Assembly: GCA_022354845.1 (NCBI GenBank)
Contig: CP031970.1
Span: 744,001 to 808,000, forward strand
Length of the DNA: 64,000 nt
Direction: 5' to 3'
From: Streptococcus suis
GTDB taxonomy: Bacteria > Bacillota > Bacilli > Lactobacillales > Streptococcaceae
Shown here: piece after piece, positions 2,092 to 63,661 of the stretch
Layout of the letters: each line of letters begins with the position of its first letter
Position numbering within the stretch: position 1 is the stretch's first letter
Notes under the pieces: model-generated
The model's database searches: none
Told to the model about the DNA's origin: nothing
The model's input: only the letters and a program-made list of their open reading frames with translations
Program-made: the position numbers and the translations under genes

Positions 2092-5000
2092 ATGCTAGCG
2101 CAATTAGATACAAAAACCGTCTATACCTTTATGGATAGCATGGTTACAATTGAAGAATACGTTAAACGTGCAAAAAATCTCGGCTATCAAACTATAGGAA
2201 TCATGGATATTCATTCTTTGTACGCTGCATATGGATTTTTGGAAGCCTGTCAAAAAGAAGGGCTCAGACCCATCATTGGTTGTGAATTGGACTGGAAATA
2301 TAATAATGGCCAGTCAGAAATTTTAACGAAACTGATTGCATTATCGACAAAGGGTTACCAAAACCTGATGAAAATTTCTACCGCAAAAATGACCGGTCAA
2401 GATGATTTTGATTCGATTCGTCAATTCCTTCAAGATATTGCAGTTATTGTCCCTTTTAAAGATGGTGTCGATAAACTTGATTTAGGGGTAGACTATTATA
2501 TAGGTATTTATTCAGATACACCAGTTCAGTCTTTTGACCATCCTGTCCTTCCGTTACATACAGTGCGTTATTTTCAAGAAAATCAACTAGAGAGTCTACA
2601 AGTTTTACGTGCTATCAAAGACAACATTCCTCTTAATCAAGTAAACGAAATTGAACACCAACAAGTTTTACTATCTGCTGAAAGATTGACGATGAGCTTC
2701 ATGGGCCGATATCCTCAGGCAATCTCCAATCTTGCACAATTAGTGGAGAATGTTTCTTATCATCTTGATAAAAAAGTTAAACTTCCTCGATTTAATCGTC
2801 AGCGACCTGCAGTTGAGGAATTGAGAGAAAAAGCACAGGCAGGCTTAGTGGAAAAACAATTGGATTTCCCCCTTTATCAAGAACGTTTGGATAAGGAATT
2901 GGCCATCATACATCAGATGGGATTTGATGATTATTTCCTGATTGTATGGGACTTACTTCGATTTGGTCGTACCCAGGGTTACTATATGGGAATGGGACGA
3001 GGATCAGCTGTAGGAAGTTTGGTTGCTTATGCATTAAATATTACAGGTATTGATCCTGTCAAACACAACTTGCTATTTGAACGGTTTCTAAATAGTGAAC
3101 GGTATTCTATGCCTGATATAGATATTGATATACCGGATGTCCATCGCTCGGATTTTATCCGTTATGTTCGTGATCGCTATGGTACGACGCATGCAGCTCA
3201 AATTGTGACCTATTCTACTTTTGGAGCCAAGCAAGCTATCCGCGATGTCTTTAAGCGTTTTGGAACACCGGAATATGAACTGACCAATATTACTAAAAAA
3301 ATTTCTTTTCGTGATAGTCTGGAGTCCGCTTATCAGAGAAACGCCGCATTTCGCCAAATCATCAATAGTAAAATAGAGTATCAAAAAGCCTTTGCTATTG
3401 CAAGACAAATTGAAGGCCAGCCAAGGCAAACATCAATTCATGCTGCGGGTGTTGTGGTTAGTGACGAGGACTTGACGGATACTATTCCATTAAAAATCGG
3501 CGACGATATGCTGATAACGCAGTATGATGCTCACGCGGTAGAAGCTAATGGACTTCTAAAGATGGATTTTCTGGGGTTAAGAAACCTGACATTTGTTCAG
3601 AAAATGGCGGAATTGGTAAAGAAGAAATATAATAAAACGATTGATATTGCTGCAATTGATTTGGAGGATTCGGCAACTTTAGAATTATTTGCCAAAGGGC
3701 TGACCAAAGGTATTTTTCAATTTGAACAGCCAGGTGCTATTAGCTTATTAAAACGTGTAAAACCTACTCGTTTTGAGGATATCGTAGCTACTACAAGTTT
3801 GAACCGCCCTGGTGCGAGTGATTATTCAGAGAATTTTGTTCAACGAAAACAGGGCAAAGAAGCAGTCGTCTTGTTAGATCCATCAATTGCTTCCATTCTT
3901 GAACCGACCTACGGGATTATGCTTTATCAAGAACAGGTCATGCAGATTGCTCAAGTGTATGCTGGATTTACACTTGGGAAAGCCGACTTGCTCCGTCGAG
4001 CCATGTCTAAGAAAAATGCTCAGGAGATGCAAGCGATGGAGGCTGATTTTTTAATAGGAGCTGAAAAGAATGGCCATGAGAAGTCAAAAACCAAAGATAT
4101 TTTTGCGATGATGGCCAAGTTTGCTGGCTATGGTTTTAATAGAAGTCATGCCTATGCGTATTCAGCCCTTGCCTTTCAGATGGCCTTTTTTAAAACTCAT
4201 TATCCAGATGTATTTTTTGAAGTAATGTTGAATTATTCGAATGTAGGTTATATTCATGATGCCTTGCAATTTGAATTTCAGATTGCCCCATTGTACATCA
4301 ATACCATTCCCTACCATGATAAATTTGAGAAAGATAAAATCTACATGGGTCTAAAAACTATTAAAGGATTATCTAAAGATTTCGCTATTTGGATAATAGA
4401 AAATCGACCATTCATTACATTCGAAGATTTTATTCTACGACTACCTCATCAATATAGAAAAAAAGAACAGTTATTGCCGTTGATACAACTTGGTTTATTT
4501 GATGAGATTGAGTCGAATCGGAAGAAAATAGTTGAGAATCTTGAAAATCTGTTCGTTTTTGCGGAAGCATTTGGGACATTTTTTGCGGAGGAAGCCTATA
4601 GTTGGAAGCATGTGGATGACTATTCCAATATAGAGAAATACAACATGGAACAAGAAATAATTGGTTTGGGAATTAGTCCACACCCTCTCATTCAATTACG
4701 AAAACAATCTTCCCAACGACTTACTGACATTGTAGATTTAGAAACTGAAAGCAAGGCAACAGTTTTGGTTCAAATTCAATCTGTGCGTGTTATTCGAACC
4801 AAAAAAACTGGGGAGCAGATGGCCTTTTTACAGGTGACTGATACGAAACAGAAATTAGATGTTACCTTGTTTCCTGAAACTTACAGGAAGTATCAGTCAT
4901 TATTAAAGGAAAATAGTTTCTGTTATATCACGGGAAGGGTTCAAGAAAGAGAGGGACAGCACCAACTTGTACTAGACCAGTTGGAATTGGTTTCTCAGGA

Positions 5001-46917: not shown

Positions 46918-46974
46918 AATTTCATCAATTGTATGAATTTTATTGAAAAATCTGAAAATTTACGCAATTATCTA

Positions 46975-47003
46975 TTGACAAATGATTTTAAAACAGTTAT
47001 CAT
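46975..47003 (+). promoter_or_regulatory. Promoter of the aromatic transporter leader
   Basis: TTGACA (46975-46980), 17-base spacer, TATCAT (46998-47003). Predicted start near 47010, giving a 318-base leader before the first binding protein. Confidence 0.8.
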
Positions 47004-47036
47004 AGTTACAAATCAAAAAATGAAAGGAAAACAGAT

Positions 47037-47099
47037 ATGCCACGTATGTGTCGAAAACAAACAGTTACTCGTACATATTTCTACAGCTATTTTAGATAG
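47037..47099 (+). CDS. Putative leader peptide, Tyr/Phe-rich (20 residues)
   Basis: ATG at 47037, nine bases after AAAGGA, opens a 20-codon frame ending TAG. Codons 14-19 read TAT TTC TAC AGC TAT TTT (YFYSYF): five aromatic codons in six. The peptide precedes an intrinsic terminator and an aromatic-amino-acid-type ABC transporter, so it looks like an attenuation control peptide in which ribosome stalling at Tyr/Phe codons reports shortage. No protein homolog is known to me. Confidence 0.65.
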   Translation: MPRMCRKQTVTRTYFYSYFR

Positions 47100-47208
47100 T
47101 GTTTGTAGGCATGGAAGACATGGATGCAAACACGGGAACGTAAAGTTTGTATCTATGTGGCTGTAGTCATTTTGACATGTGCCTCATAGATGAATACATC
47201 TAAATGGC
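47099..47208 (+). promoter_or_regulatory. Competing helices of the aromatic leader
   Basis: Visible pairings: GTGTTTG 47099-47105 with CAAACAC 47127-47133; alternative CAAAC 47127-47131 with GTTTG 47145-47149; long-range CTACAGC 47081-47087 (within the Tyr/Phe codons) with GCTGTAG 47160-47166; TAGATG 47187-47192 with CATCTA 47197-47202; and antiterminator TCTAAATGGC 47199-47208 with GTCGTTTAGA 47253-47262. The last competes with the terminator stem and with the small hairpin before it. Confidence 0.6.
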
Positions 47209-47249
47209 GCGAGTTGTTCAGTCTGTTTTTATTATACAGTTGAAGCATT

Positions 47250-47293
47250 GGGGTCGTTTAGAATGTCATCTTCTAGACGGTCCCTTTCTTTTT
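47250..47293 (+). terminator. Attenuator terminator before the aromatic transporter
   Basis: GGGGTCGTTTAGA pairs with TCTAGACGGTCCC over about 13 positions (three wobbles), loop ATGTCATCT, tail TTTCTTTTT. It lies 35 bases before the first binding-protein start. Confidence 0.75.
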
Positions 47294-47327
47294 GGCTTAA
47301 CTACTTATACATTTAAAGGAGATTGAA

Positions 47328-48290
47328 GTGTTTAGATTTAAAAAAATTATTCTTAGCTCGGTTGTAGCACTATCAGCGCTAACATTGGCAGCATGTAGTT
47401 CTAATAGTGAAGATTCTGGATCAGTTCGGGTTGGTATTATCCAATATGCAGAACATGAGGCATTAACGTCAGCTCGTGAAGGATTTATAGAAGCATTGGA
47501 AGATGCGGGATACAAGGAAGGCGAGAATCTGACAATTGATTTACAAAATTCCCAAGGAGATCAAGCCAATTTACAAACAATGGTAGGACAGCTTGCAGGG
47601 AAAAATGATTTGAACTTTGCAATTGCAACACCTGCTGCCCAAGCATTGTTAAATGCGGATGGTGAGACACCAAGTGTGTTTACAGCTGTAACGGATCCAG
47701 TTGAAGCAGGACTGGTTGAAAGTTTGGATGCACCCGGCGGTTCTATGACAGGATCTACTGATGCAACAGATGTAGAAGGGCAAATTGACATGTTACTCAA
47801 AGTGGTTCCTTCAGCTAAAACGGTTGGTATCTTCTACAATTCAAGTGAAGTTAATTCTGAGGTGCAAGCTGACCAAGCTAAACAAGCCCTTGAAGCGAAA
47901 GGAGTCAAAGTAGAGGTAGCAACTGTTACTTCAACAAATGACGTTCAACAAACAATGACCTCTTTGGCAGCTAAGGTCGATGCTATCTATCTCCCGACAG
48001 ATAATACAGTTGCTTCAACTGCTTCAACGATTGGTGAAATTTTACAAGAAGCAAAAGTTCCAGCAATGGGAAGTGATGCCGCAGTTATTGATGCTACTCT
48101 ATTTACTTATGGAGTTGACTATCATGCAATTGGTGTACAGGCTGGTGAACTAGCTGTGAAAATCTTGAAAGGTGATAAGCCAGCTGACTTGCCAGTTGAA
48201 AAACCAAATACAGCTGCTGTTACTGTGAATGAAGAAATGGCGACAGCTCTCGGTTTTGATGCTGAAACTATTAAAGCATTGGAAAAATAA
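47328..48290 (+). CDS. ABC transporter substrate-binding lipoprotein, TrpX-like (copy 1)
   Basis: A 320-residue lipoprotein (lipobox LAAC) of the ABC_sub_bind family (PF04392): VGIIQYAEHEALTSAREGF..., LQNSQGDQANLQTM, IATPAAQALL and PTDNTVAST. A pneumococcal homolog was crystallised with tryptophan, as I recall, so aromatic amino acids are the likely ligands. Start is GTG at 47328 after AAAGGAGATTGAA. First gene of a four-gene importer operon. Confidence 0.88.
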   Translation: MFRFKKIILSSVVALSALTLAACSSNSEDSGSVRVGIIQYAEHEALTSAREGFIEALEDAGYKEGENLTIDLQNSQGDQANLQTMVGQLAGKNDLNFAIATPAAQALLNADGETPSVFTAVTDPVEAGLVESLDAPGGSMTGSTDATDVEGQIDMLLKVVPSAKTVGIFYNSSEVNSEVQADQAKQALEAKGVKVEVATVTSTNDVQQTMTSLAAKVDAIYLPTDNTVASTASTIGEILQEAKVPAMGSDAAVIDATLFTYGVDYHAIGVQAGELAVKILKGDKPADLPVEKPNTAAVTVNEEMATALGFDAETIKALEK

Positions 48291-48314: not shown

Positions 48315-49295
48315 ATGATGAAAACTAAATTCATGAAAAAAATAGCTGCGATTTCCCTGGTTAGTGTAGGAATTTTGACGCTTGCAGCTTGCTCTTCCGC
48401 AAGTTCAGACAAATCTTCTTCTGAAACAGTTAAAGTTGGGATTCTACAATATATGGAACATGAATCCTTGACTGCAGCGCGTGAAGGATTTGTAGCAGAG
48501 TTAGAGGCGAACGGCTACAAAGAAGGAGAAAAATTAGTCTTAGATTATCAGAATGCACAAGGTGATCAAGCAAACCTACAAACTATATCAGAACAATTAA
48601 TCGATGGAAATGATATTGTGTTAGCTATTGCAACACCTGCTGCACAAAGTTTGGCAACCGTATCAACTGAAACTCCCATCCTATTCACTGCCGTTACGGA
48701 TCCATTATCAGCGGATTTGGTAGAGTCTATTGAAAAACCAGGGGGACTCTTGACTGGAACCTCAGACCAAGCTCCAATTGATAAACAAGTTGAATTATTA
48801 GGCCAGGCCGTTCCAGATGCGAAAACAGTTGGTATCCTATATACCACTAGCGAGCGGAACTCTGAGGTTCAAGTAGAACAAGCTAAAGAATTGTTTGAAA
48901 AAGCAGGCTATAAGGTGGTTGTAAAGGGAATCACTTCAACAAATGAAGTGCAAGATGCCACTAAAAGCTTGATGAAGGATGTAGATGCTATTTTTGTTCC
49001 AACTGATAACACTATTGCCTCAACAATGACCATGATTGGTGAATTGTCTGTTGAGCATCAAATACCAGTTATAGGTGGTTCAACAGATATGGTGGATGAA
49101 GGTGGTTTACTAACTTATGGTACTAATTATGAGGCTTTAGGACGTCAAACCGCAAAAATGGCAATCAAAATTATTGAGGGTGCGGATGTTTCTGAAACCG
49201 CAGTGGAATACCCTGAAACAGTTAGTCTTCATATAAATGAGGACATTGCCAAACAACTCGGAATTGATACTAGCAAACTTTCTATATCTGAGTAA
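48315..49295 (+). CDS. ABC transporter substrate-binding lipoprotein, TrpX-like (copy 2)
   Basis: A 326-residue paralog of the preceding protein, with lipobox LAAC and the same motif series (VGILQYMEHESLTAAREGF, LDYQNAQGDQANLQT, VPTDNTIAST). The two differ enough to suggest different ligand preference, for example Trp versus Tyr/Phe. Start after AGGAGTATC. Shares the permease and ATPase downstream. Confidence 0.88.
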   Translation: MMKTKFMKKIAAISLVSVGILTLAACSSASSDKSSSETVKVGILQYMEHESLTAAREGFVAELEANGYKEGEKLVLDYQNAQGDQANLQTISEQLIDGNDIVLAIATPAAQSLATVSTETPILFTAVTDPLSADLVESIEKPGGLLTGTSDQAPIDKQVELLGQAVPDAKTVGILYTTSERNSEVQVEQAKELFEKAGYKVVVKGITSTNEVQDATKSLMKDVDAIFVPTDNTIASTMTMIGELSVEHQIPVIGGSTDMVDEGGLLTYGTNYEALGRQTAKMAIKIIEGADVSETAVEYPETVSLHINEDIAKQLGIDTSKLSISE

Positions 49296-49342: not shown

Positions 49343-50236
49343 GTGGATATTATTTTATCAAGTATTTCGCAAGGCTTGCTTTGGTCAGTCATGGCGATTG
49401 GTGTTTACTTGACTTTTCGTATTTTGGATATCGCAGATATGACAGCAGAGGGATCTTATCCCCTTGGAGCCGCTGTTTGTGCAACAGGAATTGTAAATGG
49501 TCTAAACCCTTTACTTGCAACTTTCCTTGCAATGATAGCTGGTATGGGAGCTGGATTAATTTCTGGCTTACTCCACACAAAGTTAAAAATTCCTGCTCTC
49601 TTGACAGGTATTGTCACCTTGACAGGTCTTTATTCGATTAACTTGAAAATATTAGGTAAGGCCAATGTGGCTTTGCTTAAGCAGGAGACCTTGGTCACTC
49701 AATTGCAGGATTTTGGTTTGGCTAAAACGAATGCTGTACTGGTGATTGGTATCATCTTTGTTTTAGCAGTTGTCGGAGTGTTAACGCTTTTACTCAATAC
49801 ACAAATTGGTTTGGCTATTCGTTCAACAGGGGATAATATTCCAATGAGTGAAGCAAATGGCATTAACGTAGACAGAATGAAAATCTATGGCTATATGATA
49901 TCAAATGGGTTAATTGCTCTCTGTGGTGCCTTGTTGACCCAAAATAATGGTTATGCAGATTTGAACTCTGGTACGGGAACTATCGTTATCGGTTTGGCAT
50001 CTGTCATTATTGCTGAAGTCATATTACGGAATCTCCGTTTGGGTTGGAGATTACTGTCAATTGTACTGGGTGCAGTCGTATACCGCTTGATTATTCTTGC
50101 GATTTTGGAAATACCTGGGATGGATGCGGACCTTGTTAAACTCTTCTCTGCAATTCTATTGGCAACTGTACTTTATGTTCCTGAATTACAGAAAAAACTC
50201 AATATTCGTCGTCCCAAATTAAATGGACATGCTTAG
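49343..50236 (+). CDS. ABC transporter permease, TrpY-like
   Basis: A 297-residue membrane protein of the BPD_transp_2 family with about eight hydrophobic helices (DIADMTAEGSYPLGAAV, GIVTLTGLYSINL, AIRSTGDNIPMSEANGIN). Start is GTG at 49343 after AAGGAG. It forms the channel of the aromatic-type importer. Confidence 0.88.
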   Translation: MDIILSSISQGLLWSVMAIGVYLTFRILDIADMTAEGSYPLGAAVCATGIVNGLNPLLATFLAMIAGMGAGLISGLLHTKLKIPALLTGIVTLTGLYSINLKILGKANVALLKQETLVTQLQDFGLAKTNAVLVIGIIFVLAVVGVLTLLLNTQIGLAIRSTGDNIPMSEANGINVDRMKIYGYMISNGLIALCGALLTQNNGYADLNSGTGTIVIGLASVIIAEVILRNLRLGWRLLSIVLGAVVYRLIILAILEIPGMDADLVKLFSAILLATVLYVPELQKKLNIRRPKLNGHA

Positions 50237-50245
50237 GAGGAAATA

Positions 50246-51046
50246 ATGACAACAATTTTATCAATAGAAAATATTCATAAAACCTTCGAAGCAGGGACTG
50301 TCAATGAAAATCATGTTCTTCGTGGGTTAAGCATAGATGTGAAAGAAGGAGACTTTATCTCTATTATCGGTGGTAATGGTGCTGGTAAGTCAACATTTAT
50401 GAACTCACTTGCTGGAGCACTAACGGTTGATTCGGGTGATATTTTACTTGAAGGGAAATCCATCAAGCATGTCTCAGCTGCAAAACGTTCTAAGGACATT
50501 AGCCGTGTTTTCCAAGATCCGAAGATGGGAACTGCTTCTCGCCTAACTATTGAAGAAAACATGGCCATTGCTTATCGTCGTGGATTATCACGTGGTCTCG
50601 GTTGGGGTGTAAAAGATAGTGAACGTGCTATTTTTAAGGAAGCATTGAAAGAGCTTGGTCTGGGATTGGAAAACCGTATGAAAATTGATACTCAATTTCT
50701 TTCAGGTGGCCAACGTCAAGCTTTGACTTTGATGATGGCTTCACTTGTTAAGCCCAAGGTACTCTTGCTAGATGAACATACTGCTGCTCTTGATCCAAAA
50801 ACCAGTGATATGGTAATGGAATTGACGAAGAAAATCGTTGAAGGACACCAATTAACGGCGTTGATGATTACGCACAATATGGAAAACGCTATTGTATATG
50901 GCAATCGATTAGTGATGTTGCATCGTGGTCAAATCGTTGTTGATGTTGAGGGTGAAGAGAAGAAGAATTTAACTGTTAAAGACTTGATGGATCTTTTCTA
51001 CCAGAATAGTGGCGAAAAATTGACTGATGATGATATGATATTATAA
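50246..51046 (+). CDS. ABC transporter ATP-binding protein, TrpZ-like
   Basis: A 266-residue ATPase with Walker A GGNGAGKST, Q-loop RVFQDPKMGTASRLTI, signature LSGGQRQALTLMMA, Walker B LLLDEHTAALDP (His in place of the usual Pro) and switch MITHNMENA. The DEHTAALDP form is typical of this TrpZ-like group. Closes the operon; a bidirectional terminator follows. Confidence 0.9.
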   Translation: MTTILSIENIHKTFEAGTVNENHVLRGLSIDVKEGDFISIIGGNGAGKSTFMNSLAGALTVDSGDILLEGKSIKHVSAAKRSKDISRVFQDPKMGTASRLTIEENMAIAYRRGLSRGLGWGVKDSERAIFKEALKELGLGLENRMKIDTQFLSGGQRQALTLMMASLVKPKVLLLDEHTAALDPKTSDMVMELTKKIVEGHQLTALMITHNMENAIVYGNRLVMLHRGQIVVDVEGEEKKNLTVKDLMDLFYQNSGEKLTDDDMIL

Positions 51047-62149: not shown

Positions 62150-62176
62150 ATGACAGCCTCAATGCGTTTAAGATAA
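62150..62176 (+). CDS. mef leader peptide MTASMRLR
   Basis: ATG ACA GCC TCA ATG CGT TTA AGA TAA after TAGGAGGA encodes MTASMRLR. This eight-residue peptide is described upstream of mef/msr(D) elements as part of macrolide-inducible transcriptional attenuation. Confidence 0.85.
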   Translation: MTASMRLR

Positions 62177-62184
62177 GCTGGCAA

Positions 62185-62226
62185 TAAAAAAAGCAGAATC
62201 AATCCCCGATGATAGGCTTTTTTGTT
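62185..62226 (+). terminator. First hairpin of the mef leader
   Basis: AAAAAAGC... GGCTTTTTTG pairing around an imperfect middle, with T run, just after the leader peptide. Likely part of the attenuator. Confidence 0.5.
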
Positions 62227-62338
62227 GTGCTTATTTATACGATATTGAGCATTCATTAGTTACGGTGAGGATATTGGTTATTTAAGTATACCTTTATTTA
62301 ACTATGTCTTTAATATGAATGTTTCCAAATTGTATGTA

Positions 62339-62381
62339 TGCAGACCAAAAGCCACATTGTGGGGTTTGGCCTGCATTTTTT
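62339..62381 (+). terminator. Attenuator terminator before mef
   Basis: TGCAGACCAAAAGCCAC pairs with GTGGGGTTTGGCCTGCA, then TTTTTT; a long strong stem 60 bases before mef. The rest of 61993-62443 has only a 24-codon frame (61995-62069, MDNEDKTLRH...) I cannot assign. Confidence 0.8.
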
Positions 62382-62443
62382 ATTGCCTAGAATGCTATTC
62401 AAAATAGAAATTTAAGCAAAATAATATGCAGGAGATAATATAA

Positions 62444-63661
62444 ATGGAAAAATACAACAATTGGAAACGAAAATTTTATGCAATATGGGCAGGGCAAGCA
62501 GTATCATTAATCACTAGTGCCATCCTGCAAATGGCGATTATTTTTTACCTTACAGAAAAAACAGGATCTGCGTTGGTCTTGTCTATGGCTTCATTAGTAG
62601 GTTTTTTACCCTATGCGATTTTGGGGCCTGCCATTGGTGTGCTAGTGGATCGTCATGATAGGAAGAAGATAATGATTGGTGCCGATTTAATTATCGCAGC
62701 AGCTGGTGCAATGCTTGCTATTGTTGCATTCTATATGGAGCTACCTGTCTGGATGGTTATGATAGTATTGTTTATCCGTAGCATTGGAACAGCTTTTCAT
62801 ACCCCAGCGCTCAATGCGGTTACACCACTTTTAGTACCAGAAGAACAGCTAACGAAATGCGCAGGCTATAGTCAGTCTTTGCAGTCTATAAGCTATATTG
62901 TTAGTCCGGCAGTTGCAGCACTCTTATACTCCGTTTGGGATTTAAATGCTATTATTGCCATCGACGTATTGGGTGCTGTGATTGCATCTATTACGGTAGC
63001 AATTGTACGTATACCTAAGCTGGGTAATCAAGTGCAAAGTTTGGAACCAAATTTCATAAGAGAAATGAAAGAAGGAATTGTCGTTCTGAGACAAAACAAA
63101 GGATTGTTTGCCTTATTACTCTTAGGAACACTATATACTTTTGTTTATATGCCAATTAATGCACTATTCCCTTTAATAAGCATGGAATACTTTAATGGAA
63201 CACCTGTGCATATTTCTATTACGGAAATTTCCTTTGCATTTGGAATGCTAGCAGGAGGCTTATTGTTAGGAAGATTAGGGAGCTTCGAAAAGCCTGTATT
63301 ACTAATAACTAGTTCATTTTTTATAATGGGGGCCAGTTTAGCCGTTTCGGGAATACTTCCTCCAAATGGATTTGTAATATTTGTAGTTTGCTGTGCAATA
63401 ATGGGGCTTTCGGTGCCATTTTATAGCGGCGTGCAAATAGCTCTTTATCAGGAGAAAATTAAACCTGAATATTTAGGACGTGTATTTTCTTTGACCGGAA
63501 GTATCATGTCACTTGCTATGCCAATTGGGTTAATTCTTTCTGGATTCTTTGCTGATAAAATCGGTGTAAATCATTGGTTTTTACTATCAGGTATTTTAAT
63601 TATTGGCATTGCTATAGTTTGCCCAATGATAACTGAGGTTAGAAGATTAGATTTAAAATAA
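62444..63661 (+). CDS. mef: Mef-family macrolide efflux MFS transporter
   Basis: A 405-residue, 12-helix major facilitator protein starting MEKYNNWKRKFYAIWAGQAV, close to Mef(A)/Mef(E). Most of the N-terminal half agrees with Mef(A) as I remember it, but residues ~265-320 (GRLGSFEKPVLLITSSFF...) and scattered sites differ, so it may be a divergent or mosaic allele. It exports 14- and 15-membered macrolides together with the ABC-F protein encoded next. Start after CAGGAGATA. Confidence 0.92.
   Translation: MEKYNNWKRKFYAIWAGQAVSLITSAILQMAIIFYLTEKTGSALVLSMASLVGFLPYAILGPAIGVLVDRHDRKKIMIGADLIIAAAGAMLAIVAFYMELPVWMVMIVLFIRSIGTAFHTPALNAVTPLLVPEEQLTKCAGYSQSLQSISYIVSPAVAALLYSVWDLNAIIAIDVLGAVIASITVAIVRIPKLGNQVQSLEPNFIREMKEGIVVLRQNKGLFALLLLGTLYTFVYMPINALFPLISMEYFNGTPVHISITEISFAFGMLAGGLLLGRLGSFEKPVLLITSSFFIMGASLAVSGILPPNGFVIFVVCCAIMGLSVPFYSGVQIALYQEKIKPEYLGRVFSLTGSIMSLAMPIGLILSGFFADKIGVNHWFLLSGILIIGIAIVCPMITEVRRLDLK

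Follow-up and report, generated by a model that had tools for sequence, protein, structure and literature searches.

What controls an ABC importer operon of Streptococcus suis that is preceded by a short reading frame rich in tyrosine and phenylalanine codons? The locus (46975-47327) lies in a window of 64,000 nucleotides, by which we mean the whole stretch of DNA that was analysed, from a genome assembled as one 2.03-Mb contig. Leader-peptide attenuation is a textbook device of Proteobacteria, and Firmicutes are thought to rely mainly on T-boxes. A preliminary description of the locus had proposed that ribosomes stalling on the Tyr/Phe codons of this frame release an antiterminator. Based on comparative and folding evidence, the leader is very probably a ribosome-mediated transcription (leader-peptide) attenuator. 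'Aromatic' in this leader means Tyr/Phe; Trp codons occur in other copies of the scaffold.

Leader, operon and neighbourhood in the window

All parts of the leader lie on the forward strand. Promoter-like hexamers, TTGACA (-35, 46975-46980) and TATCAT (-10, 46998-47003), are separated by a 17-nt spacer and can be read directly, as can the ribosome-binding site AAAGGA (47023-47028), 8 nt ahead of the leader ATG at 47037. The reading frame (47037-47099, 20 codons) encodes MPRMCRKQTVTRTYFYSYFR followed by a stop codon and is kept in relatives. Its control codons are Y14, F15, Y16, (S17), Y18 and F19, codons 14-19 being TAT TTC TAC AGC TAT TTT. Promoter, ribosome-binding site and the YFYSYF frame agree base for base with the preliminary description. 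A 43-base stretch elsewhere in the genome (G000:C1:2015129-2015171 in L002, minus strand) is 82% identical to the leader's promoter region (window about 46974-47017).

The leader forms a cascade of six alternating segments, A-F, with an inner hairpin. Segment A (47081-47098), the 5' arm of helix A:B, runs from the last control codons into the stop codon, and the inner hairpin consists of a left arm, P2L (47099-47113), which begins at the last base of the stop codon, and a right arm, P2R (47119-47133). Segment B (GTTTGTATCTATGTGGCTGTAG, 47145-47166) has A, P2R or C as partner. By direct reading, CTACAGC (47081-47087) is complementary to GCTGTAG (47160-47166), and in the leader fold the A:B helix reaches 16 pairs, more than had been described. 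Folding gives the arm 47119-47131 two alternative partners, 47101-47113 or B, and these P2R bases would be able to pair with 47145-47157 of B once P2L is covered. Segment C (47181-47192) can by folding pair with B in the predicted readthrough state or, in the termination state, with D, through TAGATG (47187-47192) and CATCTA (47197-47202). Segment D (CATCTAAATGGC..., 47197-47214), the 5' arm of the antiterminator, has C or E as partner, and in D:E TCTAAATGGC (47199-47208) pairs with GTCGTTTAGA (47253-47262). Segment E (47250-47262) is both the left arm of the terminator and the 3' arm of the antiterminator, and segment F, the right arm of the terminator (47272-47284), together with the T-rich run behind it occupies 47272-47293. 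In the terminator, GGGGTCGTTTAGA (47250-47262) and TCTAGACGGTCCC (47272-47284) form 13 pairs, some of them G-U. Each of the pairings named in the preliminary description, and its 13-pair terminator ahead of the first binding protein, can be found in the sequence. The 281-nt leader fold has a z-score of -6.1, with 0/200 shuffles equally stable, and shuffles matched the window's helix in 0/100 cases for D:E, 0/100 for A:B and 4/100 for B:C.

The first regulated gene (47328-48290, plus strand, GTG start) encodes a TrpX-family ABC substrate-binding lipoprotein (SBP) that is 98% identical to an SBP of Streptococcus suis HCJ31. It is followed on the same strand by a paralogous second TrpX-family SBP (48315-49295, 52% identity to the first), an ABC permease (49343-50236), for which all matches fall below curated cut-offs, and an ABC ATP-binding protein (50246-51046), which likewise matches below cut-offs. 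Both SBPs miss the curated cut-off of 390 for NF041285 (TrpX tryptophan SBP, equivalog), with 294.6 and 338.5 bits, respectively; this cut-off alone does not tell the substrate, because SBPs behind Trp-coded leaders also score below it (306-358 bits). Genes of the aroD, aroC and tyrA types and ylbF lie 5' of the leader, and aroB-, aroE- and DAHP-synthase-type genes lie 3' of the operon on the opposite strand (aroD, aroC, aroB and aroE assigned by eye). We predict Tyr/Phe rather than Trp as the substrate of the importer. The window also holds an L20 ribosomal protein leader (RF00558, 38270-38398, plus strand, 75.1 bits).

Distribution, peptide conservation and covariation

In a relaxed Rfam scan, window positions 47083-47239 matched RF02863, 'Enterococcus sRNA 2410', with 35.9 bits (E 2.6e-4), below the gathering score of 61; by alignment, the leader is homologous with copies that pass this score. 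Matches to RF02863 were found in 158 of 295 sampled Lactobacillales genomes (71 above the cut-off) and in 0 of 14 control genomes. Our own model, built on 90 non-redundant copies of which many come from the same genomes that were searched, matched 179 of the 295 genomes, representing 54 of 74 genera. Across the phylum, four of 398 sampled genomes matched it, three of them Lactobacillales; RF02863, in a sample of 398, matched five genomes outside the order yet within the class. Judged by homology, the predicted switch is widespread across Lactobacillales and not a streptococcal curiosity: a device matched in 54-61% of the sampled genomes of the order, under names (sRNA, riboswitch) that would hide its mechanism. 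A second RNA from the same Enterococcus study as sRNA_2410 (PMC5593968), RF02862 'Enterococcus sRNA 1300', has a full-length and strongly conserved match in the window (62153-62383, plus strand, 270.6 bits; gathering score 48.8), adjoining an MFS-like transporter gene (by eye) that starts at 62444.

Across 160 loci, the first downstream gene belonged to a TrpX-SBP cluster (114), an aroE cluster (33), DAHP synthase (7), pheA (3) or singletons (3), the clusters being named from identified representatives. Since 30 of the 114 TrpX loci had been picked for preceding TrpX, the unbiased count is that of the 130 copies found by the RNA model alone (not de-replicated): TrpX-type SBP 84, aroE 33, DAHP synthase 7, pheA 3 and other 3. 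Thus 127 of 130 such copies sit before a TrpX-type, aroE, DAHP-synthase or pheA gene. Viewed from the gene, the element stands upstream of the first SBP's relatives in 36 of 39 named loci, 29 by pattern and the remainder by reading (L025, L027, L034, L035 and L038, with L029 and L030; L034 and L035 are without the final Arg). The exceptions among the 39 are L032, with no clear copy, L036, with too little upstream sequence, and L041 of Oenococcus kitaharae, with a different leader containing WWW. In L041 (2313-2360) a separate small leader, MKIVFKNNSAWWWLG, and terminator-like hairpins precede the TrpX-family gene, apparently another Trp attenuator without this scaffold. Leader and leader-type importer were both present in 6 and both absent in 12 of 18 Streptococcus genomes tested. 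The six positive genomes, checked from 34 that have the leader, carry this importer directly behind it; of the 12 negative genomes, 11 possess a more distant paralogue alone (36-41% identity) and the twelfth lacks even that.

We read the encoded peptide in 110 RF02863 copies (30 plus 80 picked among the matches listed); the Rfam model starts inside codon -1, and codons -3 and -2 lie outside it. In all 110, three or more of codons -3, -2, -1, +1 and +2 are aromatic, the central residue is Ser (109) or Gly (1), and Arg follows, with YYFSYFR (39), FYFSYFR (32) and AYFSYFR (12) among the endings. The aromatic codons singled out in the window are therefore conserved across relatives. Our set of 90 loci includes 15 chosen by aromatic peptide pattern or gene (the window and 14 named loci), and peptide counts use the other 75. 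In these 75 non-redundant copies, codon -3 is aromatic in 66 and codon -2 in 74, written TAT, TAC, TTT or TTC. An in-frame start with a Shine-Dalgarno-like site is present in 68 of the 75, the other 7 being without a recognisable one, and several streptococcal starts and Shine-Dalgarno sites are weak. Over all 90 loci, Ser is kept in 83 and the terminal Arg in 88. The stop codon immediately follows the Arg position in 74 of them; it is displaced by one codon upstream in 1 and by three codons downstream in 15. A chance reading frame was ruled out by this conservation in relatives.

Of 140 loci, 136 had the terminator where it was expected; left out were L011, where the picker found no terminator, and L031, L076 and L126, where it picked another hairpin. 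These 136 loci were de-replicated to 90, four of which were dropped for C:D, leaving 86. Segment D was derived from the terminator arm, E being taken from the terminator alone and its partner searched freely. A locus's own D:E duplex beat arms swapped between loci in 80 of 90 cases (p=5e-13), and at most 5% of shuffles equalled it in 69 of 90 loci, compared with 7 of 90 for a control interval. Own arms were also better than swapped arms for C:D (77 of 86) and A:B (80 of 90), compared with 38 of 90 in a control region. B:C is equalled by no more than 5% of shuffles in 70 of 90 loci, but the own pair is better than swapped arms in 45 of 90, without covariation, so that this step is plausible only. 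The mutually exclusive helices of the preliminary description are accordingly borne out for A:B, C:D, D:E and the terminator, and covariation fails for B:C.

Covariation reaches into the control codons. Codon -1 switches from TTT to TAC jointly with the paired bases of B, at pairs 8-108 (UA 36, UG 34, AU 17) and 9-107 (UA 69, CG 15), with double-sided change in 17 and 15 of 90 sequences, respectively. Of the 70 loci with Phe (TTT) at codon -1, 61 have GCT plus AAA, AGA, AAG or AGG in B, some of the remainder being printed one base short or at a neighbouring GCT; of the 16 with Tyr (TAC), 10 have GCT plus GTA or GTG. Taken together, A:B and P2 have double changes at 16 of 26 pairs (shuffled mean 6.7; 0/500 shuffles with as many), and sliding the partners by 1-3 columns lowers the paired cells of A:B and the inner hairpin from 92% to 35-47%. 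The alternative P2R:B helix has 94.5% of cells paired and 4 of 10 pairs double-changed, with a less clear covariation score (9/500 shuffles as high). As far as sequence comparison can establish them, helices A:B, C:D and D:E, the terminator, the conserved coding region and the link to aromatic genes are in place.

Recoded copies and ribosome position

Among 50 further, mostly divergent copies read from our own model, 13, from nine genomes and one family (f4), are recoded and keep both the scaffold and the in-frame Arg-stop (AGA then TAG or TGA). Leaders with Ile/Val codons precede branched-chain amino-acid binding proteins (IISIIIR in L192, L231 and L236; IISIVIR in L194), a branched-chain aminotransferase (ilvE; IISIIR in L232 and L233) and threonine ammonia-lyase (ilvA; IIISIIR in L185, where the frame ending in Arg-stop opens with GTG and competes with an ATG frame that lacks a Shine-Dalgarno site). 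A Leu-coded leader (LLLLSLIIR, L238) precedes a branched-chain binding protein, and Trp-coded leaders (NIWQSWHR in L237 and L240, RWQGWHR in L239, NWQSWHR in L241, NWQIWHR in L242) precede TrpX-family proteins. Family profile matches back 10 of the 13 genes, and those of L233, L236 and L240 were assigned by eye. The threonine ammonia-lyase and aminotransferase genes score above curated cut-offs; the four branched-chain binding proteins, at 151-187 bits against a cut-off of 477, and the four TrpX relatives, at 306-358 bits against 390, match their families but fall short of these limits. The remaining copies among the 50 have Tyr/Phe or Phe codons, bar a few unclear ones; L200 has no Pfam match and lacks the leader stop at the usual place.

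By eye, B tracks A in the recoded copies: ATT-AGC faces GCT-AAT in L194, ATC-AGC faces GCT-GAT in L185 and CTT-AGC faces GCT-AAG in L238. The match in L231 needs a wobble pair, and that in L232 is partial. The D:E helix is retained in five Ile/Leu copies examined (-10 to -20.5 kcal/mol) and is weak or doubtful in four Trp copies examined by automatic search (-5.3, -6.5 and -10.2 kcal/mol, and none in one). An Ile-form pattern with at most one mismatch was found in 5 of 295 genomes, the backward control giving none among the matches listed. Five copies occur in each of two genomes (G220 and G244), and their codon types include Tyr/Phe, Phe and Ile.

Recoding to Ile/Val, Leu and Trp before matching genes is, in our reading of these sequences, the strongest evidence for leader-peptide attenuation, and the recurrence of the same RNA switch, recoded, before such genes points to a reusable amino-acid gauge. 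Together with the conserved aromatic codons and the aromatic gene partners it supports the proposal that Tyr/Phe codons govern attenuation in the window; readthrough would follow starvation. Copies recoded between amino acids amount to natural mutants that test the mechanism, and they indicate how such switches may gain new specificity. Leader codons may also predict transporter cargo, Tyr/Phe for the window's importer and Trp for TrpX relatives behind Trp-coded leaders.

Several single copies lie before other kinds of gene. A Tyr/Phe-type leader, YYFGLVYFR (L244), precedes a fusion of an MFS transporter and a chorismate mutase domain, and MYFSYFR (L228) and VYFSYFR (L229) precede a CitMHS/Na-sulphate-symporter-like permease (L229 by similarity). 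Leaders with SFYFWYFR ends (L201, L203 and L204), which have a Trp codon at the Ser position, stand before a possibly aromatic aminotransferase of class I/II. Outside Lactobacillales, NIWYSYRR (L157) and IFFNNHFR (L195) precede SNF/NSS-kind sodium-dependent transporters. L157 (sodium symporter; Trp/Tyr codons) and L163 (transketolase) are doubtful members.

Ribosome positions were modelled with a mask, only uncovered RNA being folded, up to the 3' edge of E. Over 90 loci, E had a median probability of 0.14 of being bound in the antiterminator in free RNA; with the A site of a ribosome at codons -12 to -5 the value was 0.20-0.34, at codons -3 to 0 it was 0.53-0.68, and between codon +1 and the stop 0.27-0.33. 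The median change in free energy relative to free RNA was near -1.4 kcal/mol on codons -3 to 0 and -0.3 kcal/mol at the stop, for a footprint extending 12 nt past the A-site start; the codon numbers shift by about one codon with the footprint assumed. The shift exceeded -1 kcal/mol in 47-53 of 90 loci on codons -3 to 0 and in 22 of 90 still at the stop codon, and a shuffled-sequence control was flat (median -0.17 kcal/mol, p=0.31). According to the folding model, the antiterminator would be promoted more strongly by a ribosome located at the aromatic codons than by one at the stop codon.

In the window itself, the change was about -10 kcal/mol on codons -3 to 0 (Y14, F15, Y16 and S17), -3.9 kcal/mol at codon -8 and -5.5 kcal/mol at the stop, and the minimum-energy fold with A masked was B:C with D:E. 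For a window transcript ending at E, the probability that E is sequestered was 0.82-0.84 in every ribosome state, with no switch; only the free-energy measure switches here, and some of its change is seen as early as codon -8. E was predicted to be sequestered even without a ribosome in 19 of the 90 loci. In transcripts ending before E, B:C was not favoured when A was masked, and the switch appears only with E present.

These features suggest the following mechanism. RNA polymerase would start near 47010 and a ribosome would begin the 20-codon leader. With ample charged tRNA-Tyr and tRNA-Phe, the ribosome would pass the aromatic codons and A:B would pair; at the stop codon, it would cover A and P2L, and P2R would hold B instead. 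In this state of plenty, C:D would pair and the terminator E:F form, giving a transcript of ~285 nt. Under scarcity, the ribosome would stall on the YFY-S-Y codons and hide A while P2L:P2R stays folded; B:C could then form, leaving D free for E, so that the terminator would be blocked and the importer operon transcribed. We infer both starvation as the signal and this sign of regulation.

Beyond the window, we consider it likely that the homologous scaffold is a modular, T-box-like amino-acid gauge across Lactobacillales. It would have been copied among operons and retargeted through a few codons of segment A (Tyr/Phe, Phe, Ile/Val, Leu or Trp), with B compensating. Three ribosome states would be told apart: before arrival (off), over the control codons (on) and at the stop (off, through P2R:B). 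On the same likely reading, this element is what has been catalogued as the Rfam sRNA and proposed as a riboswitch, and the substrate of importers at present named TrpX can be predicted from its codons.

Alternative explanations and known systems

For the probably homologous gbs2033 element of S. agalactiae, a riboswitch was proposed in 2015 (PMC4448216). A metabolite riboswitch that directly binds an aromatic amino acid or precursor would suit a conserved, structured RNA with an intrinsic terminator at its end and aromatic genes behind it. However, conservation extends to a reading frame that has a start and a ribosome-binding site, Phe and Tyr codons interchange with the opposite arm compensating, and Ile, Leu or Trp codons occur on the same scaffold before the corresponding genes, which direct ligand binding does not predict; we regard this explanation as very unlikely. 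An arrest peptide, whose nascent YFSYFR chain would detect free Tyr/Phe or a drug from within the exit tunnel without reliance on slowly read codons, would account for the near invariance of Ser and the terminal Arg. Yet the Ser and Arg bases are also constrained by A:B pairing, and the residues around Ser swap to Ile, Leu or Trp along with the regulated gene, in keeping with codon sensing. If an abundant end product were the inducer, moreover, the sign would be wrong for import and biosynthesis genes, and we hold an arrest peptide to be slightly less probable again than a riboswitch.

The RF02863 annotation implies a trans-acting small RNA, sRNA_2410 of Enterococcus faecium, for which a 195-nt transcript was reported by RNA-seq and Northern blot, as two transcripts (PMC5593968). 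At 157 of 160 loci (30 of them chosen for the gene), the element is nevertheless followed, on its own strand, by a TrpX-type or aromatic-pathway gene, has a terminator at its end and encodes a conserved peptide, and attenuation itself leaves a short transcript. A trans-acting RNA thus appears highly improbable as the explanation of the locus, and the short RNA may have a second role in trans beside attenuation. T-boxes usually control such amino-acid genes in Firmicutes, and a T-box core lies upstream of 10 of 13 paralogous streptococcal importers that were checked, with one more by covariance model. That the window leader is itself a T-box reading uncharged tRNA directly has next to no probability, as it gave no RF00230 match at the gathering score or at E up to 10 and the same model finds the paralogue's T-box; T-box identity was ruled out on this ground. 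A third TrpX-family gene in the genome (L154, about 2480-3241, minus strand; G000:C1:1315794-1316753), 40% identical to the second SBP, has a T-box upstream by covariance model (61.8 bits, below gathering), and a short Trp-rich reading frame, MMKRWRWWNSILMM, stands after that T-box, ~30 nt before the gene.

Leader-peptide attenuation, our preferred reading, is a known kind of control; the widespread scaffold, its recoding and the correction of two labels are new as far as we searched, no description of the element as a leader peptide or of its recoding being found in the passages of open-licence papers that were consulted. The his-operon and phe-type attenuators of Proteobacteria combine control codons, alternating segments and a terminator set by ribosome position. 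The window leader resembles them in its control codons, its alternating segments A-F and the predicted choice of the terminator by ribosome position. In contrast to them, its control codons extend into segment A, P2R can, by folding, hold B at the stop, and the scaffold is widespread in Lactobacillales and recoded among copies; we claim no sequence relation. T-boxes, as generally understood, likewise retarget one scaffold through codon-reading bases and overlap in target genes, but they read uncharged tRNA directly, whereas here the ribosome would read the codons.

Closer to Streptococcus, His leader peptides have been described in Bacillus, Erysipelotrichales and others (PMC2965389, PMC9413887) and a leucine-rich ilv attenuator in S. 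aureus (PMC5794164). Going by the descriptions in these sources, the former are likewise leader-peptide attenuation in Firmicutes but concern a single amino acid in narrow groups, and the latter is the same device in a Firmicute with another amino acid and operon. RF02863 is a homologous RNA whose best-scoring matches encode ...AYFSYFR, ...FFFSYFR or similar endings, followed by a stop codon, before TrpX-type SBP genes; it is annotated as an sRNA, and the terms 'leader peptide' and 'attenuat' are absent from the main text of its source (PMC5593968). The gbs2033 element is described as ~270 nt long by RNA-seq, upstream of an ABC operon and of aroFBC-tyrA in E. faecium, conserved in Lactobacillales and apparently giving short and long transcripts from one start site (PMC4448216). 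The main text of that study, from which 'leader peptide' is absent, reads it as a riboswitch for aromatic amino acids or their precursors; from its length, genes and distribution as given there, it is probably the same element as the window leader.
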